Below are positions 2,563-61,006 of a stretch of DNA of 64,000 nucleotides, one piece after another; within the stretch, counting starts at the first letter, position 1, and every line of letters begins with the position of its first letter. The stretch comes from Nocardioides conyzicola (GTDB lineage: Bacteria > Actinomycetota > Actinomycetes > Propionibacteriales > Nocardioidaceae). The translations under genes were made by a program, and so were the position numbers. The stretch spans positions 776,133 through 840,132 of the forward strand of contig NZ_BAABKM010000002.1 of the NCBI RefSeq assembly GCF_039543825.1, given 5' to 3'. A model generated the notes under the pieces. The model was not told the DNA's origin. It did no database searches and saw only the letters and a program-made list of their open reading frames with translations.

Positions 2563-3972
2563 ATGCCCGATGTCGCGATCGCCGCCCCCAACGAGGCGGC
2601 CGCCGACGCCGGCGAGCAGGTCGCACGGGCCGGCGGCAACGCCGTCGACGCCGCGCTCGCCGCGTCCCTGGTGACGATGGTCAACGAGGTCGGCCTGGTC
2701 TCGCTGAGCTCGGGCGGGTTCGTGACGATCCAGCCGTCGGGCGGCGGCGCGCCGTACACGGTGGACGGCTGGATGGACATGCCCGGCCGCGGCGGCGGAC
2801 CGCTCGGCGGCGGCACCTGGGACATCCACACCGGGTACGGCGGCGGCGTGGACATCACCATCGGACCCGGGTCGGTGGCGGCGCACGGCTCGGTGGCGGC
2901 GTTCGAGGAGGCGCACCGGCGCGACGGGCGGCTGCCCTGGCGGGAGGTGGTCGCGCCGGCGATCGACGTCGCGCGCGGCGGCTTCCGGCTGAGCGCCGCG
3001 TCGCGCTACTACCTGGAGTACGTCCACGACTCGATCTTCGGCTGGGACGAGACCAGCCGTGCGGCGGTCCACGACCTCCAAGGCGAGATCGTCACCGACC
3101 TCGTGGTCGTGCCCGACCTGGCCGACTCGCTCGAGCTGATCGCCACCGAGGGCGCGGTGGCGCTCCACACCGGCGACCTCGCCCGGCTGATCGCCACCGA
3201 CGTCCGCGCGCGCGGTGGCCTCCTCGGCCCGGACGACCTGGCGGCGTACGCGCCCGTCACCCGCCCCTCCCTCGCCACCCGCGCCGGTCGCTGGACGCTC
3301 GCCACCACGCCGCCGCCCACCGTGGGCGGCATCAGCGTCGCCGCGATGCTCGGGCTCCTCGAGGGCCGCCCGCAGGGCGCCTGGACCGACGCCGACGTCG
3401 AGCTGATGATCCGTATCCAGCGCGAGGTCCTCGGCCGGGGTCCCGCCTCGCTCCTGGAGTCGAGCTCGACCACCCACTGCTCCGCCACCGACACCGAGGG
3501 CGGCGCCTGCGCGGTCACGGTGTCGTCGGGCTACTTCTCCGGGATGATCGCCCAGGGCACCGGCATCTGGCTCAACAACACCCTCGGCGAGCAGGAGCTC
3601 AACCCCGGTGGCCTCCACGCCCTGGCTCCGGGCACCCGCTTGCTGTCCAACATGGCGCCGACCGTCGGCCGTCACGCCGACGGCTCGGTCCTCGCCATCG
3701 GCTCCCCCGGCGCGGGCCGGATCGCGACCGCCATCACCCAGGTCCTCGCCGGGATCGCGGGCGGCCTGAGCCTGCAGGAGGCGGTCCACCACCCCCGCGT
3801 GCACGTCCACCACCCCGGCCGTCCCGACGAGGTCGTCAAGCGCGAGACCGAGGAGGGCCTGACCATGTACTACGGCGGCGTCGGCGTCACGCTCGTCCAC
3901 CCCGACGGGCACCTGGTCGCCGCGGCCGACCCGCGCCGCGAGGGCGCCGTACGCCTGGTCCGCAGCACCTAG
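2563..3972 (+). CDS. Gamma-glutamyltransferase family protein, no signal peptide
   Basis: A 469-residue Ntn-hydrolase of the gamma-glutamyltranspeptidase family, which cleaves gamma-glutamyl amide bonds after self-processing into two chains. The N-terminal AGGNAVDAALAASL (about 25-38) is the family signature. The self-cleavage and nucleophile region is SSTTHCSATD near residue 305, where the Thr before His is the expected nucleophile, and the small-subunit motifs (GSPGAGRIATAI) follow. It is shorter than the usual 530-600 residues and begins directly at the catalytic domain, so it should be cytoplasmic. A TACGGT element (2551-2556) six bases before the ATG suggests a leaderless transcript. A secreted paralogue lies at 51379-53199. 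Confidence 0.85.
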   Translation: MPDVAIAAPNEAAADAGEQVARAGGNAVDAALAASLVTMVNEVGLVSLSSGGFVTIQPSGGGAPYTVDGWMDMPGRGGGPLGGGTWDIHTGYGGGVDITIGPGSVAAHGSVAAFEEAHRRDGRLPWREVVAPAIDVARGGFRLSAASRYYLEYVHDSIFGWDETSRAAVHDLQGEIVTDLVVVPDLADSLELIATEGAVALHTGDLARLIATDVRARGGLLGPDDLAAYAPVTRPSLATRAGRWTLATTPPPTVGGISVAAMLGLLEGRPQGAWTDADVELMIRIQREVLGRGPASLLESSSTTHCSATDTEGGACAVTVSSGYFSGMIAQGTGIWLNNTLGEQELNPGGLHALAPGTRLLSNMAPTVGRHADGSVLAIGSPGAGRIATAITQVLAGIAGGLSLQEAVHHPRVHVHHPGRPDEVVKRETEEGLTMYYGGVGVTLVHPDGHLVAAADPRREGAVRLVRST

Positions 3973-4030
3973 CCGCGGAGACCGCCTGAGACGTCGGGTT
4001 GCGGCAGGTCCAGACGGGCACGATGTGCGC

Positions 4031-6313
4031 ATGCGCAGGTATCTCGTGGCCCTCGGCCTCGCCCTCGTGGCCTCGGCAGGGAGCCTGGGCTTCGCGGCCT
4101 CCGGCACGGCCGCCGCTGCGCCGCTCTGCTCCGACAAGGTCGTGACCGACCGCGCCGACGTCCTCGACGACGCCGCGGTCGAGCGGGCGGCCGCCCGCTT
4201 CGACGACCAGGTCGTGGTGAAGGTCCTGTCGTTCAGGACGACCAACGGCCGCGACCTCTACGACCTGCTCCTCGACGCCCGGGCACAGTGCCACGGCTGG
4301 GGCTTCCAGGCGGACGGCTCGAGGTCGCTGCTGATCCTCGGCGTCGCCACTCAGGACCGCAAGCTCGGCAGCCACTACGACGGGGCAGCGCTGGAGACGT
4401 TCGAAGCCGCCCGCGACCACGCCGAGGTCGACGGCATGGGAGCCAACTTCGGCAACGGCGACTGGACCGCCGGCATGGTCGACGGGCTGACGATCTACGC
4501 GCGGGCCTACGCCCGTACGCCCACGCCGAGCACCGACCCGGACCCTGACAGCTCGATCCCGCTCGGCGGACCCGAGCAGGCCTCCGGCTCGGGGACCGGC
4601 AGCAACTGGGTCCTCGGCGGGCTGGGCGGCCTGTGCGTCGTCGGCGCCGCGGCGTACGGCGGGACGAGGCTGTGGCGATGGCGGGCCGCGACCACGAACG
4701 CGCGCGCCACGCTGAGCGGCGCGACCGACGAGATGGCGACGACGTGGGTCGAGGTCGACGGCGGGCGGGAGTACGTCGCCGCCCGGGTCGACGCGCTGCC
4801 CCAGGTCTCGGACGCGACCGTCACCCGGATCCGGACCGAGCACGCGGCAGCGGTCGCGGCGCTCGAGGCTGCCACCGCCGGCTACCTGGAGAGGTCCCAG
4901 ACCTACTCGACCGAAGCCGTCGCGAAGATGGATGCGGACGAGGCGTCAGGCGGAGTGGTCCCCGTCCAGCAGACCACCGCCCAGCTGCGCGCAGCACGAG
5001 AGGCGCTGACCCGGGTCGAGCAGTCCGTCACAGCGTTCGAGCAGGTCCGCGACCAGCTCCCGGCCCGGGTGGCCGAGCTGCGCGCCGCGGCCACCCGCCT
5101 GACCACGCTCCTCGCGGAGCGGCAGGGCGAGGGCTACCGGACCGCCGACATCGACGGTGCGCGGACGGCGGCCGAACAGGCCGCCCGCGACGCGGAGACC
5201 CTCGGCGGCCAGCTGCGATGGGGCGACGCCGACGCCGTGGTGGCGGCGGCGATGACCACCGTCGCCGGACACGAGGCCTGGCTGACCGGCCTCCCCGGCT
5301 ACCTCGCCGACCTGGGCACCGACACGGCCGCCCTGGAGGCCCGGGCGACCGAGCTCGACACCGCGATCGCCGAGGCCTACGTGACGACCGAGCACCTCGA
5401 GGCGACGTACGACGCGTCGTGCCTCGAGGGGGTGCGCGGCCGGGTCGACGCTGCGAAGGTCGCGCGGGTCGCACTGACCGACGCGCTGGCGACCATCCGG
5501 GCGAACTCGTCGATGACGACCCAGGAGTTCCGGCTGGCCCGGGAGCAGATCACCGCCGCCCGCCTCGCCGCGGACGCCATCGCGACGGACGCGGCGACGG
5601 CCGGGGTGCGGGAGCGCGAGCTCGAGCAGCTCACCACCGAGCTCCCGCTCACCGGACAGCGGCTGGCCGCGGAGGCCTACGCCCTCACCGGTCAGGTCGA
5701 GGACAACGCGGCGGCGATCTCCTACCTGGCCACCGCCCCCGACATCCGCCCCATCGGTGCCGAGGCCGCCGCGCTCGGCGAGCAGGCGGCGGCCCCCAAG
5801 GCGCCGCTGCTCCGACTCAAGACCGACCTCGACGCCGTCGCGGCGCGACTGGCCGCCAGCACCGCCACCGTCACGGCCGCGATCACCGACTACGAGGAGA
5901 CCCAGCGCTCGTTGCGCGCGGCCGAGGCGGCCGTCACCGAGGCCCGGAGCGAGGTCGGCCGCCCCGACATCGGCAGCCACGCCCGTGCCGCCGCCGAGGA
6001 GGCCGCGGCCCTGCTCGACCAAGCCTCCGGGCTCGCCACCCTCGATCAGATCCGACGCGGGGCCGACGCGGCTCGCAGCACGGCCAACGACGCCGTCGCC
6101 ATGGCCCGCCGCGACCGGCGCGAGGCCGAGGAGGAACGCGACGCCGCGCGCCGCCGAGCCGCGGCGGCCAGCGCCTCGCGCCGGTCCTCGTTCTCCAGCT
6201 TCGGCAGCAGCAGCGGCGGCTCCCACCACTCGTCGGGCGGCGGAGGTGGCTCCCGGAGCTCCGGCGGCGGGGGCTCGCGCGGGTCGGGTGGCGGAGGTTC
6301 GCGCGGCTTCTGA
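4031..6313 (+). CDS. TPM-domain membrane protein with long coiled coil and Gly/Ser-rich tail
   Basis: A 760-residue envelope protein. Residues 1-30 are a Sec signal (LVALGLALVASAGS, ending near AAAAP). Residues 35-150 match the TPM fold (VVTDRADVLDD start), a domain found in envelope proteins of photosystem-II-repair and phosphatase type. A membrane helix lies near 190-215 (WVLGGLGGLCVVGAAAYGG), then about 480 residues of Ala/Glu/Arg-rich heptads that predict a coiled coil. The last 45 residues are Ser/Gly repeats (SGGGGS units), typical of TPM proteins in this phylum. A GTG six bases upstream (4025) is an alternative start. The biochemical role is unknown; a cell-envelope or septal scaffold is a guess. 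Confidence 0.82.
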   Translation: MRRYLVALGLALVASAGSLGFAASGTAAAAPLCSDKVVTDRADVLDDAAVERAAARFDDQVVVKVLSFRTTNGRDLYDLLLDARAQCHGWGFQADGSRSLLILGVATQDRKLGSHYDGAALETFEAARDHAEVDGMGANFGNGDWTAGMVDGLTIYARAYARTPTPSTDPDPDSSIPLGGPEQASGSGTGSNWVLGGLGGLCVVGAAAYGGTRLWRWRAATTNARATLSGATDEMATTWVEVDGGREYVAARVDALPQVSDATVTRIRTEHAAAVAALEAATAGYLERSQTYSTEAVAKMDADEASGGVVPVQQTTAQLRAAREALTRVEQSVTAFEQVRDQLPARVAELRAAATRLTTLLAERQGEGYRTADIDGARTAAEQAARDAETLGGQLRWGDADAVVAAAMTTVAGHEAWLTGLPGYLADLGTDTAALEARATELDTAIAEAYVTTEHLEATYDASCLEGVRGRVDAAKVARVALTDALATIRANSSMTTQEFRLAREQITAARLAADAIATDAATAGVRERELEQLTTELPLTGQRLAAEAYALTGQVEDNAAAISYLATAPDIRPIGAEAAALGEQAAAPKAPLLRLKTDLDAVAARLAASTATVTAAITDYEETQRSLRAAEAAVTEARSEVGRPDIGSHARAAAEEAAALLDQASGLATLDQIRRGADAARSTANDAVAMARRDRREAEEERDAARRRAAAASASRRSSFSSFGSSSGGSHHSSGGGGGSRSSGGGGSRGSGGGGSRGF

Positions 6314-54700: not shown

Positions 54701-55648
54701 TCAGTCTGGCGCCGGGGCAGCCTCGCGCACCCGACCGATCTTGCTCAGGGCGTGCTCGACGAGGTCGGGGTCGTCGTACCGGAGCCAGGTGATCCGCGGG
54801 TCCTTGCGGAACCACCCGTCCTGGCGCCGCGCGAACCGCCGGGTGGCGTACATCGTGCGGTCGCGGGCCTCCTCGAGGGTGAGCTCTCCGCGCAGGTGCG
54901 CCACCACCTCGCGGTAGCCGATCGCCACCGAGGCGGTGCGGCCGTCGGCCAGCCCCTCGTCGAGCAGCCGCTCGACCTCGGCCACGAAGCCGGCCTCGAA
55001 CATCAGGTCCACGCGCCGCTCGATCCGCTCATCCAGGGTCGGGCGGTCGATGTCCACGCCGATCTGGACGGTCAGCGGGTCGGCGTACTCCAGGGTCGGC
55101 AGCGAGGCGCTGTAGGGCCGGCCGGTGATCTCGATGACCTCGAGGGCGCGGACGGTGCGTCGCCCGTTCTCGACCAGCATCCGGCCGGCGGCCTCCGGGT
55201 CGAGGGTGCGCAGCCGGTCGTAGAGGGCGGCCGGTCCCAGCTCGGCGAGCTCGGCCTCCAGCCGGTCGCGGACGGCCGTGTCGGTGGCGGGGAACTCGAA
55301 GCGGTCCACGATGGCCCGGGTGTAGAGCGCCGAGCCGCCGACGAGGACCGGGGTCCGCCCCACGGCGCGCAGGTCGTCCACGACGTCGCGCGCCCACACC
55401 TGGAACTGGGCCACGGTGGCCGGAGCGCGGACGTCGAGGGTGTCGAGCAGGTGGTGCGGGATGCCGCGGCGCTCGGCGGGCGGCAGCTTCGCCGTACCGA
55501 TGTCCATGCCGCGGTAGACCTGCATGGCGTCCGTGTTGACCACCTCGCCGCCGAGGCGCTCCGCGAGGTCCAGCGACAGCTTGGTCTTCCCGGACGCGGT
55601 CGCGCCGACCACGGCCACGATCGGCACGCGGTCGGGGGTTGGCTGCAC
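54701..55648 (-). CDS. miaA: tRNA dimethylallyltransferase
   Basis: A 315-residue enzyme that adds an isopentenyl group to A37 of tRNAs reading UNN codons; MiaB then methylthiolates it. P-loop VVGATASGKTKLS, substrate site NTDAMQVYRGM with the catalytic Asp, and the C-terminal Gln/Arg motif TRRFARRQDGWFR are all present. GTG 55648 is chosen because CACACT lies six bases upstream, suggesting a leaderless transcript; GTG 55627 is a shorter option. Head of a transcription unit with the two genes after it. Confidence 0.95.
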   Translation of the reverse strand: MQPTPDRVPIVAVVGATASGKTKLSLDLAERLGGEVVNTDAMQVYRGMDIGTAKLPPAERRGIPHHLLDTLDVRAPATVAQFQVWARDVVDDLRAVGRTPVLVGGSALYTRAIVDRFEFPATDTAVRDRLEAELAELGPAALYDRLRTLDPEAAGRMLVENGRRTVRALEVIEITGRPYSASLPTLEYADPLTVQIGVDIDRPTLDERIERRVDLMFEAGFVAEVERLLDEGLADGRTASVAIGYREVVAHLRGELTLEEARDRTMYATRRFARRQDGWFRKDPRITWLRYDDPDLVEHALSKIGRVREAAPAPD

Positions 55649-55666
55649 GTGGCTAGTGTGGCAAAC
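55649..55666. promoter_or_regulatory. Overlapping divergent leaderless promoters
   Basis: On the plus strand TAGTGT (55654-55659) stands seven bases before ATG 55667. On the minus strand CACACT (55660-55655) stands six bases before GTG 55648. The two -10 elements overlap by five bases, so only one polymerase can open the DNA here at a time. Confidence 0.6.
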
Positions 55667-55846
55667 ATGACTGCACCGGTGCCCGAGGAGAACGACGAGC
55701 CGACCGCGACCCAGGACGACCGCACGCCGCCGGGCGAGCACCCGAGCGAGATGACGGAGGGCAACGACGCGACACCTCCGGGCGAGCAGGAGGAGAATGC
55801 GGAGACGTCGCTCGACGAACCGTCGGACGGCAGTGGAGGTGAATGA
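55667..55846 (+). CDS. Small acidic disordered protein (59 aa)
   Basis: A 59-residue hydrophilic protein rich in Glu, Asp, Pro and Thr, with no Lys and only one Arg. It has an internal repeat (DDRTPPGEHPSEMTEG and NDATPPGEQEENAETS). No signal or membrane segment and no known domain, so it is probably intrinsically disordered. ATG 55667 fits a leaderless promoter. One base after its stop the antitoxin-like gene begins. First gene of a five-gene cluster of tiny acidic proteins with a Nudix hydrolase. Confidence 0.68.
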   Translation: MTAPVPEENDEPTATQDDRTPPGEHPSEMTEGNDATPPGEQEENAETSLDEPSDGSGGE

Positions 55847-55847
55847 C

Positions 55848-56051
55848 ATGAGCTTCATCGACAAGGCGAAGGACGCGGTCTCGGACGCCGTGGACAAGCA
55901 CGGCGACAAGATCGCCGAGGGGATCGACAAGGCGGCCGGCCTGGCCGACGAGAAGACCGGCGGCAAGCACAGCGACAAGATCGCCGGCGGCGCCGCAAAG
56001 GCCAAGGACGCCCTCGACAAGCTCGACGGCAAGAACGACGACATCCGCTGA
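55848..56051 (+). CDS. MT0933-like antitoxin family protein
   Basis: A 67-residue hydrophilic helix-rich protein: MSFIDKAKDAVSDAVDKHGD, then KIAEGIDKAAGLADEKTGGK and a tail ending KLDGKNDDIR. The repeated DK(A/H)xDKI pattern and the TGGKHSDKI motif match the actinobacterial MT0933 (Rv0909) antitoxin family. No toxin gene is adjacent, so toxin-antitoxin function here is doubtful; an amphipathic LEA-like or stress role is possible. A GGAGG site lies in the end of the preceding gene. Confidence 0.82.
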   Translation: MSFIDKAKDAVSDAVDKHGDKIAEGIDKAAGLADEKTGGKHSDKIAGGAAKAKDALDKLDGKNDDIR

Positions 56052-56060
56052 GGTGGTCCC

Positions 56061-56204
56061 GTGAGTGAGTTCGACATCGAGGAGACACCGCCCGACGAGG
56101 ACGTCGCGGAGGACGAGGTGCTCTCCGAGGACACCGGCACGATCTACGACGCCACCGGCGAGGCGGAGACCACGCCGCACGAGCTCGTCGAGGACGACGA
56201 GTGA
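56061..56204 (+). CDS. Very acidic 47-aa protein
   Basis: A 47-residue protein with 20 Asp/Glu and no Lys or Arg, beginning MSEFDIEETPPDEDVAEDEV and ending ETTPHELVEDDE. It starts at GTG 56061, nine bases after the antitoxin-like gene, and its stop overlaps the GTG of the Nudix gene (GTGA). Disordered, acidic, perhaps a nucleic-acid mimic or a cofactor of a partner in the operon; no family is known to me. Overlap with both neighbours argues that it is a real gene. Confidence 0.65.
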   Translation: MSEFDIEETPPDEDVAEDEVLSEDTGTIYDATGEAETTPHELVEDDE

Positions 56205-56674
56205 CGCAGGGCCCGACGCACGGCCGCTTCGTGGTCGTGCCGGCGGCGTACGTCTTCCTCCTTCGTGACGGGGACGCCGGCACCGAGGTCCTGCTGCAGC
56301 TGCGGCAGAACACCGGCTACATGGACGACCACTGGGCCGCGGCCGCGGCGGGACACGTGGAGCGCGGCGAGACGGCGTACGACGCCGCGCACCGCGAGGC
56401 GCACGAGGAGCTCGGCGTCTCCGACCTGGACCTGGTGTTCGTGACGTCCATGCAGCGCACCGGTCACGACGAGCCGATCGACGAGCGCGTCGACTTCTTC
56501 TTCACCGCCCGCTCGTGGTCCGGCGAGCCGCGGATCGTCGAGCCCGACAAGGCCGCCGACCTGCGCTGGTGCCCGCTCGACGCACTGCCGGACCCGGTCG
56601 TGCCGCACGAGCGCTCCGTGTTGGAGTCGCTCCGAACGGGTACGACCACGGCGTACTCCACCTTCGGCTTCTGA
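56201..56674 (+). CDS. Nudix hydrolase
   Basis: A 157-residue Nudix pyrophosphatase. The Nudix box spans GHVERGETAYDAAHREAHEE and LGV (about residues 50-72) with all catalytic Glu present. Members hydrolyse nucleoside diphosphates linked to another moiety (X), for example oxidised nucleotides or ADP-sugars. The GTG at 56201 is coupled to the acidic 47-aa gene before it. Confidence 0.92.
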   Translation: MTQGPTHGRFVVVPAAYVFLLRDGDAGTEVLLQLRQNTGYMDDHWAAAAAGHVERGETAYDAAHREAHEELGVSDLDLVFVTSMQRTGHDEPIDERVDFFFTARSWSGEPRIVEPDKAADLRWCPLDALPDPVVPHERSVLESLRTGTTTAYSTFGF

Positions 56675-56698
56675 GCCACTTCCTGCGAGGAGATCCAC

Positions 56699-56965
56699 GT
56701 GACGCCCGACGACCTCGGCCCCATGCCCGACCCGGTCATCGAGCCCGGCGAGCCCAACCCCGGGGGCGTCGACGCCCTGCAGGACGACAGCGGTCCGATC
56801 GCGATCCCCGACCTCACCCCGGACGAGAACCCGGCCCTCGACGACAAGGCGCCCGAGACCGTGAAGAAGGAGGTCTCGGACAGCGAGGACACCTCCACCG
56901 AGGCCACCGAGTCGGGCGACGGTGACGAGACCGACCACCAGCCGGAGAAGGAGTCCCCGGCGTGA
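56699..56965 (+). CDS. Acidic disordered protein (88 aa)
   Basis: An 88-residue protein rich in Asp, Glu, Pro and Ser. The first third is Pro/Gly-rich (DPVIEPGEPNPGGVD) and the last third is poly-acidic (SGDGDETDHQPEKESPA). GTG 56699 has GAGGAG at correct distance. No hydrophobic core, signal or known domain. Its stop overlaps the GTG of the following gene. Confidence 0.65.
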   Translation: MTPDDLGPMPDPVIEPGEPNPGGVDALQDDSGPIAIPDLTPDENPALDDKAPETVKKEVSDSEDTSTEATESGDGDETDHQPEKESPA

Positions 56966-57189
56966 CCGGCCGCGACGACAGCGACGAGGAGCTCCAGCGG
57001 TCCACGCCCGGCTCCAGCGGACCCGAGCGCGCCGCCGGCGGGATGGGTGTCAGCAGCGAGCGGGTCGGTCCGACCGGCCCGGGCCAGACGGCGACCGACG
57101 GGCTGCGCGACGTCTCCGAGGACGAGCGCGAGCCCGGCGAGGAGACGCCCCCCGAGCAGTCCGCCGATGGGGCCTCGCGCTCGGAGTGA
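56962..57189 (+). CDS. Acidic disordered protein (75 aa)
   Basis: A 75-residue Glu/Asp/Gly/Ser-rich protein (EELQRSTPGSSGPERAAGGM, then DVSEDEREPGEETPPEQSA). It is coupled by GTGA to the 88-aa gene and ends three bases from the convergent secreted-protein gene. Last member of the acidic cluster. No recognised family. Confidence 0.62.
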   Translation: MTGRDDSDEELQRSTPGSSGPERAAGGMGVSSERVGPTGPGQTATDGLRDVSEDEREPGEETPPEQSADGASRSE

Positions 57190-57192
57190 TCG

Positions 57193-57882
57193 CTACGGAC
57201 AGCTGACGCTCGCGACGTCGGTCGACAGCACCCTGCTGCCGCGCGCGGTCACCTCGACATGCGTCGATCCCCCGGAGGGAACGGGCAGGTAGTAGTTGAC
57301 GCTCGACGTGGGCCGGACTGCCAGCGAGGCCGAGGAGTCGCCGTACGACGACGCGACCGTGTACCCGACCGTGGCGTCGCTCGTGCCTCGGTTGTCCAGC
57401 ACGATCCTGGCGACCGAGTCGTGGCCCTGGCACCCAACGCCGCCGAGCGCAGCCACCGGGTGGACCGTCGCGACGTAGCACGACGACTGCGCGGGGACGA
57501 TGGCCGAGAGCACGAGGCTCTTGCGACCCATCTCCGGGACCCGGACCCGCACCGAGGCCGTGGCCCGTTGCGCGACGGACACGACGACGGTCCGCTTCCG
57601 GTGTGCGGCGACCCACCGGTAGACGACCGGATCCGCGTACCGGTCACCGGCGCGAACGACCCTGAACTGCACGCGGCGCGAGGAGCGTCGGTTGTCGAGG
57701 ACGATGGTGCGTCTGGTGATGCCCGCGGAGGCGCCCTGGACACAGGTGACGTGGCGCGACAGCTTCGCGCGCGCGTCGTACACAGGCGCTGCGGCGCCGG
57801 CGTCCGCAGTGGTCAGCGTGGCGGTCAGCAAGCTGGCGACGGTGCCGAGGACGGCGGTCGCCCCGATCGTGGTGGTGCGCAT
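57193..57882 (-). CDS. Secreted protein of unknown function
   Basis: A 229-residue exported protein. The Sec signal TTTIGATAVLGTVASLLTAT ends near DAGAAAP. The mature part has two similar beta-rich halves (TIVLDNRRSSRRVQFRVV and RIVLDNRGTSDATVGYTV), a likely internal duplication of an Ig-like fold, with four to five Cys spaced for disulfides (VTCVQG, SSCYVAT, VGCQG, VSCP). ATG 57882 has GAAGGGA upstream. Function unknown; extracellular interaction or structural role is possible. Confidence 0.75.
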   Translation of the reverse strand: MRTTTIGATAVLGTVASLLTATLTTADAGAAAPVYDARAKLSRHVTCVQGASAGITRRTIVLDNRRSSRRVQFRVVRAGDRYADPVVYRWVAAHRKRTVVVSVAQRATASVRVRVPEMGRKSLVLSAIVPAQSSCYVATVHPVAALGGVGCQGHDSVARIVLDNRGTSDATVGYTVASSYGDSSASLAVRPTSSVNYYLPVPSGGSTHVEVTARGSRVLSTDVASVSCP

Positions 57883-57982: not shown

Positions 57983-59458
57983 TCAGCGGCAGGCGGGAGC
58001 GTCCGGAAGTGGCGCCGGTACGCCGAGGGTCGGCATGCCGAGGCCGACGCCGACCGGCGTGGCTCCCGGTTCCTGAGCCTGTCGATGGGCCCACGCGTCG
58101 CCGGATCGCGTCCGTCGTACGGCGAGGACCGGGCCGTCGGCGACCAGGTGGTGCGGGGCGGCGTACGTGATCTCGACGGTCACCCGGTCGCCCGGTCGCA
58201 CCTCGACGTCCTCGGGCGGGGTGAAGTGCACCAGCCTGTTGTCGGGGCCGCGGCCGGAGAGCCGGTGGGTCACCTTGTCCTTGCGGCCCTCGCCCTCGGA
58301 GACCATCAGCTCGACCCGTCGGCCGACGAGCCTCTTGCCCTCGTCCCACGCGACCTCGTTGACCAGCGCGGCCAGCCGGTCGTAGCGGTCCCTGACCACC
58401 TCGGGCGGGATCTGGCCGTCGAGGGTGGCGGCGGGGGTGCCGGGACGCTTGGAGTACTGGAAGGTGAAGGCCCCGGCGAAGCGGGCCTCGCGCACCACGT
58501 CGAGCGTCGCCTGGAAGTCCGCCTCGGTCTCGCCCGGGAAGCCGACGATGATGTCGGTGGTGATCGCCGCGTCGGGCATCGCGGCGCGGACCCGCTCGAT
58601 GATGCCGAGGTACTTCGCCTGCCGGTAGGACCGGCGCATGTCCTTGAGCACCTTGTCGGAGCCGGACTGCAGCGGCATGTGCAGGGAGGGCATCACGTTG
58701 GGCGTCTCGGCCATCGCCTCGATGACGTCGTCGGTGAACTCCGCCGGGTGCGGGCTGGTGAAGCGGACCCGCTCGAGACCCTCGATCTCGCCGCAGGCGC
58801 GCAGCAGCTTGGAGAACGCCTGCCGGTCGCCGAACTCCACGCCGTACGCGTTCACGTTCTGGCCCAGCAGGGTGATCTCGGAGACGCCCTCGGCGACCAG
58901 CGCCTCGACCTCGGCGAGGATCTCGCCCGGGCGGCGGTCCTTCTCCTTGCCGCGCAGCGCGGGGACGATGCAGAACGTGCAGGTGTTGTTGCACCCCACC
59001 GAGATCGACACCCACGCGGCGTACGCCGAGTCGCGCTTGGTGGGCAGGGTCGACGGGAAGACCGCGAGCGACTCGAGGATCTCGACCTGCGCCTCCTCCA
59101 TCACCCGCGCGCGCTCGAGGAGCACGGGCAGCGAGCCGATGTTGTGGGTGCCGAAGACGACGTCGACGTACGGCGCCTTCGTGGTGATCGTCGAGCGGTC
59201 CTTCTGCGCCAGGCAGCCGCCGACGGCGATCTGCATGCCCGGGTTGGCGGCCTTGATCGGCGCCAGGTGGGAGAGGTTGCCGTAGAGCTTGTTGTCCGCG
59301 TTCTCGCGCACCGCGCAGGTGTTGAAGACGACGACGTCGGCCTGCGCGTCAGCGGGGGCAGCGACGTAGCCCGCGTCCTCCAGCAGCCCCGTCAGGCGCT
59401 CGGAGTCGTGGACGTTCATCTGGCACCCGTAGGTGCGGACCTCATACGTACGTGCCAT
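57983..59458 (-). CDS. miaB: tRNA-2-methylthio-N6-dimethylallyladenosine synthase
   Basis: A 491-residue radical-SAM methylthiotransferase that completes ms2i6A37 in tRNA after MiaA. The N-terminal UPF0004 domain has three cluster Cys (YGCQMN, NTCAVRE, VGGCLAQ). The radical-SAM cluster is CNNTCTFC (about 158-165), and the TRAM domain lies at about 390-450. A long Arg/Pro/Ala-rich C-terminal tail (about 40 residues) follows it. The ATG is preceded by a weak binding site. No other gene is coupled to it. Confidence 0.97.
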
Positions 59459-59521
59459 GGCCAGAAAAGGGTACGGCGGTCCTGCCCACCCGCCGAAAAC
59501 CAGGGCTACGCTGCCGCCACC

Positions 59522-61006
59522 ATGAGCTCCCACCTCGACCGTCGCGCCCTGCTCCTCGCCGGAGCAGGCGTCGCCACCAGCGCCGCCCTGATGACCTTCG
59601 AGCCGGCCGCCGCCGGCACCACGACGACGAAGGTGTTCAAGGGCAGGTTCGCCGGCTCGCACGTGCCCGACTGGGTCTACCTGCCCTTCCACGTGCCGGC
59701 CGGCGTGCGCGAGATCAAGGTGAGCTACAGCTACACCCCGACCACGGGCGGCGTGACCACCACGAACGTCGTCGACATCGGGATCTTCGACCCGTCCGGC
59801 GCCGGGCTCGGCAACGCGGCGGGCTTCCGCGGCTGGTCGGGCGGTGCCCGCAGGTCCTTCCGGCTGAGCCGGACCTCCGCGACGCCGGGCTACCTCCCGG
59901 GCCCGATCAGCAAGGGTCGCTGGCGGATCGCGCTCGGTCCCTACCAGATCAACGGCGCGGGCACGCCGTACGAGGTGCGGGTGACGCTCCGGCACGGCAA
60001 GCCCGGCCCGAAGTTCAAGCCCGTGATCGCACCGACGTCGGTCCCGGGCACCGGTCCGGGCTGGTACCGCGGCGACCTGCACGTCCACACCGTGCACTCC
60101 GACGGGTCGCAGACGCAGCGTCAGGCGTACGTCGCCGCCAAGGCGGCCGGCCTCGACTTCATCGGCAGCTCGGAGCACAACACCAGCTCGGCGCAGCTCA
60201 CCTGGGGGAAGCACGTGCCCGCCGACTTCCTGGTCGTCCCCGGCGAGGAGGTCACCACCCGCGCCGGCCACTGGCTCGCGGCCGGGCTCCCGGTGCGGCG
60301 GCCGAACGGCACGTGGATCGACTGGCGCTACCGCCCGGAGGACGGCAGGCTCGCGCGGTTCGCCCGGCAGGTGCGCGGCGCCGGTGGCCTCGCGATCGCC
60401 GCCCACCCGGCCACCCCGGTCGACTCGATCCGCTGGGACTTCGGGTACGACGACATGGACGCGATCGAGGTCTGGAACGGGCCGTGGTCGGGGTTCAACG
60501 CGGTCACCAACAGCAACGCCGTGGACCAGTGGCACCAGCTGCTGGTGGACGGCACGTTCCTGCCCGCGGTGGGCAACTCCGACTCCCACAGCTCCGGCCA
60601 GAAGATCGGCGCCGCGCACACGGTCGTGCGGGCCGCGTCGCTCTCGGTCGGCGCGGTCATCGCCGGCTACCGCGGCGGGCACTCGTGGATCACGGCGTCA
60701 TCGGGCATCGACCTCGACTTCACCGCGACCCTCGGCGACGTCAGTGGTCAGTGCGGCGACCGGGTGCCCAGCGGGCCGGGTGACAGCGTCGCCGTACGCC
60801 TCGAGGTGAAGAGCGGCCTCACGTCCGGAGACACCGCCACGCTGATCGGTCCCGACGGTGTCCTCGGCACCGCCGTCGCCGCGGGCAGCGCCGTCACGCT
60901 CACGGCCGACGTGACGGGCGGTACGGCGTTCGTGCGGGCCGAGGTCAGGCGGGGCACGACGATGCTCGCGCTGACCAACCCGATCTTCCTCACCGGCACG
61001 GGGTAA
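59522..61006 (+). CDS. PHP-domain (CehA/McbA-type) metallohydrolase, Tat-exported
   Basis: A 494-residue protein with a Tat-like signal ([20 protein letters not shown]). Residues 35-160 form a beta-rich domain; residues 180-400 are a PHP metal-hydrolase domain, with [12 protein letters not shown] (two His and one Asp), [19 protein letters not shown] and GNSDSH as metal ligands; a small beta-sandwich ends the protein. PHP enzymes hydrolyse phosphoesters or carbamates. It is divergent from miaB across 63 bases. Confidence 0.88.

Follow-up and report, generated by a model that had tools for sequence, protein, structure and literature searches.

A row of six genes facing miaA

At positions 55667-57189 of the window (the whole stretch of 64,000 nucleotides that was analysed), six genes on the forward strand encode proteins of 59, 67, 47, 157, 88 and 75 amino acids, called here A, B, C, the Nudix hydrolase, E and F. 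The row is divergent from miaA and separated from it by 18 bases. An earlier sequence-only reading had placed five small genes and a Nudix hydrolase here, divergent from miaA and joined by gaps of 1-24 bases or by GTGA overlaps, and the coordinates agree with that description. The features are as follows.

54701-55648, reverse strand: miaA (tRNA A37 dimethylallyltransferase), divergent neighbour; GTG start at 55648; Pfam IPPT 4.2e-79
55649-55666, no strand assigned: promoter-like intergenic stretch GTGGC-TAGTGT-GGCAAAC between miaA and A
55667-55846, forward strand: A, acidic disordered protein of 59 aa; conserved tail NAETSLDEPSDGSGGE; 436 relatives at E 0.01
55848-56051, forward strand: B, amphipathic two-helix protein of 67 aa, MT0933 family; PF14013 1.1e-14
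56061-56204, forward strand: C, acidic protein of 47 aa; TGTxYxxxGE in its C-terminal half; 16 of 50 loci
56201-56674, forward strand: Nudix hydrolase of 157 aa; PF00293 8e-22; Nudix box intact
56699-56965, forward strand: E, acidic disordered protein of 88 aa; 44 of 50 loci; 1475 relatives at E 0.01
56962-57189, forward strand: F, protein of 75 aa; core GVSSERxGxxGPGQ; 34 of 50 loci

Gaps of 1, 9 and 24 bases separate A from B, B from C and the Nudix gene from E, respectively, and the C-Nudix and E-F junctions are 4-base GTGA overlaps. Acidic residues against Lys and Arg number 18 and 1 in A, 15 and 13 in B, 20 and 0 in C, 26 and 4 in E, and 18 and 7 in F; C, with 20 Asp or Glu, no Lys or Arg and one His, is as it had been described (20 acidic residues and no basic one). 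The acidic proteins had also been said to belong to no named family, and of the six products only B and the Nudix hydrolase exceed a Pfam cut-off; A, C, E and F of the window have no Pfam or NCBIfam match above cut-off. No publications on this gene cluster were found by title or abstract opening. Downstream, a convergent frame (57193-57873 or longer, reverse strand) ends beside F, and similar sequence is present in the locus L107; past this convergent gene, a miaB-like stretch was recognised by eye within 57983-60682 (reverse strand), which would place the gene row between miaA and miaB.

Conservation in Nocardioides and across the class

A search for Nudix orthologues (cut-off E < 1e-50) covered 58 related genomes, 37 of them of the genus Nocardioides with the window's own included; an orthologue is present in 32 of the 37 and absent from 5, and a miaA match adjoins the Nudix gene in 32 of 32. 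From a scan of named genomes 80 Nudix loci were kept, and in 50 of these miaA is divergent from and adjoins the Nudix gene or its row, as in the window. Among these 50 miaA-linked loci, E was detected in 44, F in 34, A in 33, B in 31 and C in 16 (its detection in L151 being doubtful). All six genes occur in L107 (Nocardioides sp. Root1257), L115 and L137; the window's exact order is found in L107 and also in L137, there behind an extra Nudix gene. Two further loci, L123 (with A, E and F) and L186 (with F), start near the Nudix gene at a contig end and lie outside the 50. The sequence-only reading needs correction in that the Nudix gene also stands alone: of the 80 named loci, 28 have it without A, B, C, E or F (fetched flanks of at most 3 kb). 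These belong to Pseudonocardia, Microbacterium, Actinopolymorpha and other genera, and a nearby contig end truncates one of them, L169.

In a protein search at E 0.01, A has 436 relatives, E 1475 and F at least 1911. Among the 120 matches listed for each, the named organisms are Nocardioides or members of its family with two exceptions, a relative of A from a soil metagenome (P0213) and a relative of E labelled as a Mycobacterium MAG (P0310). In 98 genomes of the class, the same threshold was passed by A in 2 and by F in 4, of which two are weak matches from other genera. Because the matches to A and F are nearly confined to Nocardioides, these two look like young families of the genus, as, by the loci seen, do C and E. 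Confinement to one species had been named beforehand as grounds for giving up the proposal; homologues are instead found in the same setting across Nocardioides, and this indicates that the six genes are real.

In the closest pair of loci compared (L045 and L046), A has a dN/dS of 1.36, whereas the other ratios run from 0.16 for E, through 0.21 for C and the Nudix gene and 0.22 for F and miaA, to 0.26 for B. E gave 0.20-0.49 in four other close pairs, and more distant pairs gave 0.44-0.79 for A, 0.56-0.72 for C, 0.73-1.07 for E and 0.54-1.10 for F, values that might fit disordered proteins with a small number of fixed motifs. Junctions were counted from automatic gene calls with the window excluded: 4-base overlaps join E to F in 11 of 11, C to the Nudix gene in 5 of 6 and B to A in 3 of 3, and B overlaps the Nudix gene in 2 of 21. 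The Nudix gene and E overlap in 6 of 26, are spaced within 30 bases in 13 of 26, and lie up to 115 bases apart. From the overlapping junctions we infer that the genes of the row may be translationally coupled, and the row would be transcribed as a single operon.

Across the class, we took the miaA flanks from 60 of the 98 genomes, a choice made to span families, and searched them with our own B profile. A B-like gene stands divergent beside miaA in 18 of the 60, in 8 families (3 in Nocardioides, 1 in another genus of the same family and 14 in seven other families), so that B, as a correction to the earlier reading, is not specific to this system; judged by this distribution, B is older than A, C, E and F. 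In one family, inferred to be Streptomyces-like, B is present in 6 of 7 miaA loci and is preceded in 5 of the 7 (L058, L059, L188, L190 and L191) by an acidic disordered protein whose IP[RK]Q tail is conserved. Homology between this tail and that of A, which look alike by eye, was rejected as unsupported (hhalign 0.05%). In another family, inferred to be Kribbella-like, 4 of the 5 fetched loci (L040-L043, not L039) carry miaA, an acidic SGGDVE-repeat protein, B and the Nudix gene, the repeat protein being encoded between miaA and B. Separately, in L045 (5218-5652, reverse strand) and L046 (3688-4122, forward strand), the interval between miaA and the A-F cluster contains an additional copy of the Nudix gene and a gene for a universal stress protein; the match of the latter to PF00582 (4.4e-27) was obtained in L046, the one locus tested.

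The encoded proteins and the gap before A

By the charge-hydropathy (Uversky) line, A, B, C, E and F all class as disordered, and each of the acidic proteins carries a conserved motif. NAx[TS][TS]xDxPS is present in 112 of the 120 relatives of A listed, and TGTxYxxxGE in 7 of 7 aligned C sequences, from a locus comparison out of which nine duplicate loci were dropped. The start of E resembles DLGPMPxPxxEPxEPxPGGVDA and its end E[SP]PA, with PA terminal in 115 of the 120 relatives listed; F has the core GVSSERxGxxGxxQ in 117 of 120 and a C-terminal PKAGYxSxDPRS-type motif (AGY..DPR) in 111 of 120 of those listed. The F of the window lacks the latter motif, and that of L107 also stops before it. 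In the window, F is cut short at 57150-57193 beside the convergent frame, and the arrival of the convergent gene may have truncated it. The AlphaFold model of E has a mean pLDDT of 70 and a pTM of 0.23, with pLDDT 79-88 over residues 1-20 and two short helices; in this model E is not plainly unstructured.

B matches PF14013 at 54.8 bits (cut-off 27) and is the sole match to that family in the genome. Its low-confidence model (mean pLDDT 66.7, pTM 0.36) contains helices at 3-37 and 42-61; the hydrophobic moment of the first exceeds that of all 2000 shuffles, and that of the second is reached by 14% of shuffles. B weakly resembles HSP9/12 (E 0.34) and SAS049 (E 0.0011, well short of the cut-off), none of its matches to solved structures rises above chance (best E 0.071), and the models of E and B offer no domain suited to a fold search. 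A 222-aa MT0933-type protein with a long Pro/Thr/Glu-rich repeat tail is encoded in L051 (4163-4831, reverse complement), adjoining a normal copy at 3830-4033.

The small genes also vary in company. F was never found without E in 47 loci, and B and C avoid each other: in 47 of the 50 miaA-linked loci (L125, L151 and L166 left out) both occur in 3, C only in 12, B only in 26 and neither in 6 (Fisher 9.5e-05). On the miaA tree, which held 49 of the 50 loci, C without B amounts to 5 changes. Replacement of B by C was considered and is not claimed, because the independent pairs were too few to decide (independent-pairs test, median p 1).

The Nudix box is complete (G51-x5-E57-x7-REAHEELGV, in agreement with GX5EX7REUXEEXGU), and G51, E57, R65, E66, E69 and E70 are invariant in 29 aligned Nudix sequences, L021, L031 and L042 having been left out of the alignment. 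The subgroup has signatures of its own (AAAAAGHVE, ERVDFFF and LPDPVVPHE), and none of the NCBIfam curated equivalogs is reached: the best scored 33 bits against a cut-off of 245, and MutT 32.2 against 148. By profile, the nearest solved relatives are the MutT-like 4dyw (6.7e-15), plant NUDX1 (AtNUDX1, 1.5e-10) and geranyl diphosphate phosphohydrolase (6ypb, 2.5e-10), after which several MutT-named proteins rank. A defence system was considered and rejected, PADLOC giving a weak Nudix match alone (PDC-S07, 7.5e-07).

In the gap before A, a -10-like TAGTGT lies on the forward strand at 55654-55659 with the ATG of A 7 bases downstream, a leaderless geometry; on the reverse strand the reading CACACT (55660-55655) overlaps it, six bases before the miaA start codon. 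In the window sequence, the -11A of each direction pairs with the -7T of the other within a symmetric element, a geometry described for bidirectional promoters (PMC10268837). The criterion for such promoters is two mapped divergent starts 7-25 bp apart, and transcripts beginning exactly at both start codons would start 19 bases apart in the window. Over 51 regions (the 50 miaA-linked loci and the window), CA[TC] followed after 2-12 nt by [TC]AGT[GC]T occurs at the miaA end of the gap in 46, a count made without a shuffle control and with CA[TC] taken by pattern (in L107 it is not the miaA start); the spacing is 5 in 41 of these 46. The strict TAGT[GC]T, sought in a shorter stretch, occurs in 36 of 51, where shuffles predict 0.3. 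An ATG or GTG stands exactly 7 bases after the element in 14 of 51, window included, among which that of L139 (GTG) is probably a chance occurrence, the first detected gene lying further on. From its symmetry, the element is possibly a shared bidirectional promoter, doubly leaderless; because the fixed spacing is to miaA, the constraint may be that of miaA's own promoter. In L107, miaA and A are separated by additional sequence (2310-2485), and a TAGTCT element remains with A.

Candidate functions and known relatives

The sequence-only reading had suggested that the acidic proteins could be nucleic-acid mimics, chaperones for a stress state or partners of the Nudix enzyme; each of these is no more than a candidate role. 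The best reading of the locus, which we put forward tentatively and at well below even confidence, is an operon that protects in the manner of hydrophilins and includes a MutT/NUDX1-type Nudix enzyme. An operon tied to miaA, and expressed constitutively with it, would yield strongly hydrophilic proteins as a matched set alongside a Nudix pyrophosphohydrolase. The bulk of A, C, E and F would provide hydration and charge, and their short conserved motifs would each dock on a fixed partner; B, helical and amphipathic, would resemble LEA proteins and would not be an antitoxin here; and the Nudix enzyme would clear nucleotides that are damaged or in excess, or else prenyl diphosphates. Hydrophilins are recognised by Gly above 6% and hydrophilicity above 1. 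A, E and F, with Gly above 6% and GRAVY below -1, pass on both counts; C falls short in Gly (4.3%) and B in hydrophilicity (GRAVY -0.77). We count in favour of this protective reading the conserved junctions, the hydrophilicity and disorder, the helices of B and its weak resemblances, the universal-stress gene in L045 and L046, the Nudix profile and the promoter-like element, and against it the shortfall of B and C on the hydrophilin rule, the dN/dS of 1.36 for A and the values of E and F in distant pairs, the partly ordered model of E, the Nudix-E overlap in only 6 of 26 and the spacing fixed to miaA.

Nearly as likely is that A, C, E and F act as adaptors through their motifs, or as mimics: each would bind one folded partner (the Nudix enzyme, MiaA or MiaB, or a nucleic-acid-binding protein) while its acidic remainder competes with RNA or DNA. 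Bulk protection would not require such conserved motifs, which favours adaptors, and the motifs are distinct from the variable remainders (in 112, 117 and 115 of the 120 listed for A, F and E). The overlap of C with the Nudix gene in 5 of 6, the constant company of E wherever F was found in 47 loci, and the fact that 5 of 7 Streptomyces-like loci have, in the corresponding position, an acidic protein whose own tail is conserved all point the same way. Against this, a search of the genome at E 0.01 returned no second match to A or F, E can lie up to 115 bases from the Nudix gene, and the Nudix gene does without any of them in 28 of 80 loci (within the fetched flanks).

That the Nudix enzyme serves MiaA, trimming prenyl diphosphates or sanitising nucleotides for tRNA modification, with the small proteins tuning it, seems to us doubtful. 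The donor substrate of MiaA is dimethylallyl diphosphate, and a prenyl diphosphate is on that account no more than a conceivable substrate of the Nudix enzyme. Its constant position beside miaA in Nocardioides, profile relatives that include plant NUDX1 and geranyl-diphosphate phosphohydrolase, and the possible shared promoter speak for such a role; yet its best profile match is the MutT-like 4dyw, nucleotide-named relatives match too, and the same Nudix occurs in Pseudonocardia, Microbacterium, Actinopolymorpha and others where no miaA match lies within the fetched flanks of at most 3 kb. Broader in scope, and unlikely, is the view that the position facing miaA has long housed disordered tRNA-modification regulators in Actinomycetes: lineage-specific acidic proteins (A, C, E and F in Nocardioides, the GGDVE-repeat protein in Kribbella-like and the IP[RK]Q-tailed protein in Streptomyces-like genomes) would each act through its own motif, with B as helical co-factor and a shared promoter tying their dose to that of MiaA.

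A toxin-antitoxin module, with B as an Rv0909-type antitoxin and either a small protein or a distant SRPBCC protein as toxin, is very improbable. PF14013 is the family of Rv0909, which forms a toxin-antitoxin pair with Rv0910 in the Rv0909-Rv0910 operon (PMC2781298), and the genome holds 20 matches to PF10604 (SRPBCC, Rv0910-type), 13 on the same contig and 7 on others. None of these is among the six genes, however; the nearest is about 38 kb away, and B was not detected in 19 of the 50 miaA-linked loci. The sequence-only reading had noted that no toxin is present; the absence of an Rv0910-type gene beside B bears this out for the known type of toxin and leaves the pair unsupported. Since a B-like gene faces miaA in 8 families, here with no toxin gene, the MT0933 "antitoxin" label, given by family alone, may mislead.

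More improbable still is that A is a Pup-like terminal tag. Its EENAE and GG[EQ] end resemble the C-terminus of the genome's own Pup (the window's A ends in SGGE and the Pup in ETNAEDFVKSFIQKGGE), 32 of the 120 relatives listed end in GG[EQ] and 95 of 120 in Q or E, but 69 of 120 end in PSQ or PSS without glycines, and homology to Pup was rejected, being undetected by Pfam and by hhalign (probability 0.15%). Spurious reading frames in a high-GC region, which small size, skewed composition and the A ratio above 1 in one pair might suggest, are scarcely credible against conserved frames and junctions, hundreds of relatives and the low dN/dS of C, E and F in the close pair.

Four undescribed small-protein families with conserved motifs, gathered in one row, make the role of acidic disordered proteins in bacteria a tractable question, and with a shared promoter, if genuine, the locus would tie tRNA i6A modification to protein protection or nucleotide clean-up.

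Set beside known systems, A is like Pup in size, acidity, disorder and, in 32 of the 120 relatives listed, the GG[EQ] end, and differs in that no sequence homology is detected and the genome's own Pup lies elsewhere. B shares with MT0933/Rv0909 its PF14013 match (1.1e-14); the Rv0909-Rv0910 pair differs from the present row, which has no SRPBCC gene and in which B goes undetected in 19 of 50 loci. The Nudix hydrolase has the full box and domain of the MutT/NUDX1-type enzymes (4dyw, AtNUDX1 and 6ypb), its relatives by profile, while falling in a subgroup of its own that fits no curated substrate model. Finally, the proteins of the row differ from hydrophilins and from LEA-like and HSP12-like proteins in being strongly acidic, in their conserved motifs, in standing beside an enzyme gene and in having no significant family match; they share with them a hydrophilic character and either disorder or a simple amphipathic helix, and A, E and F, unlike B and C, pass the hydrophilin rule.
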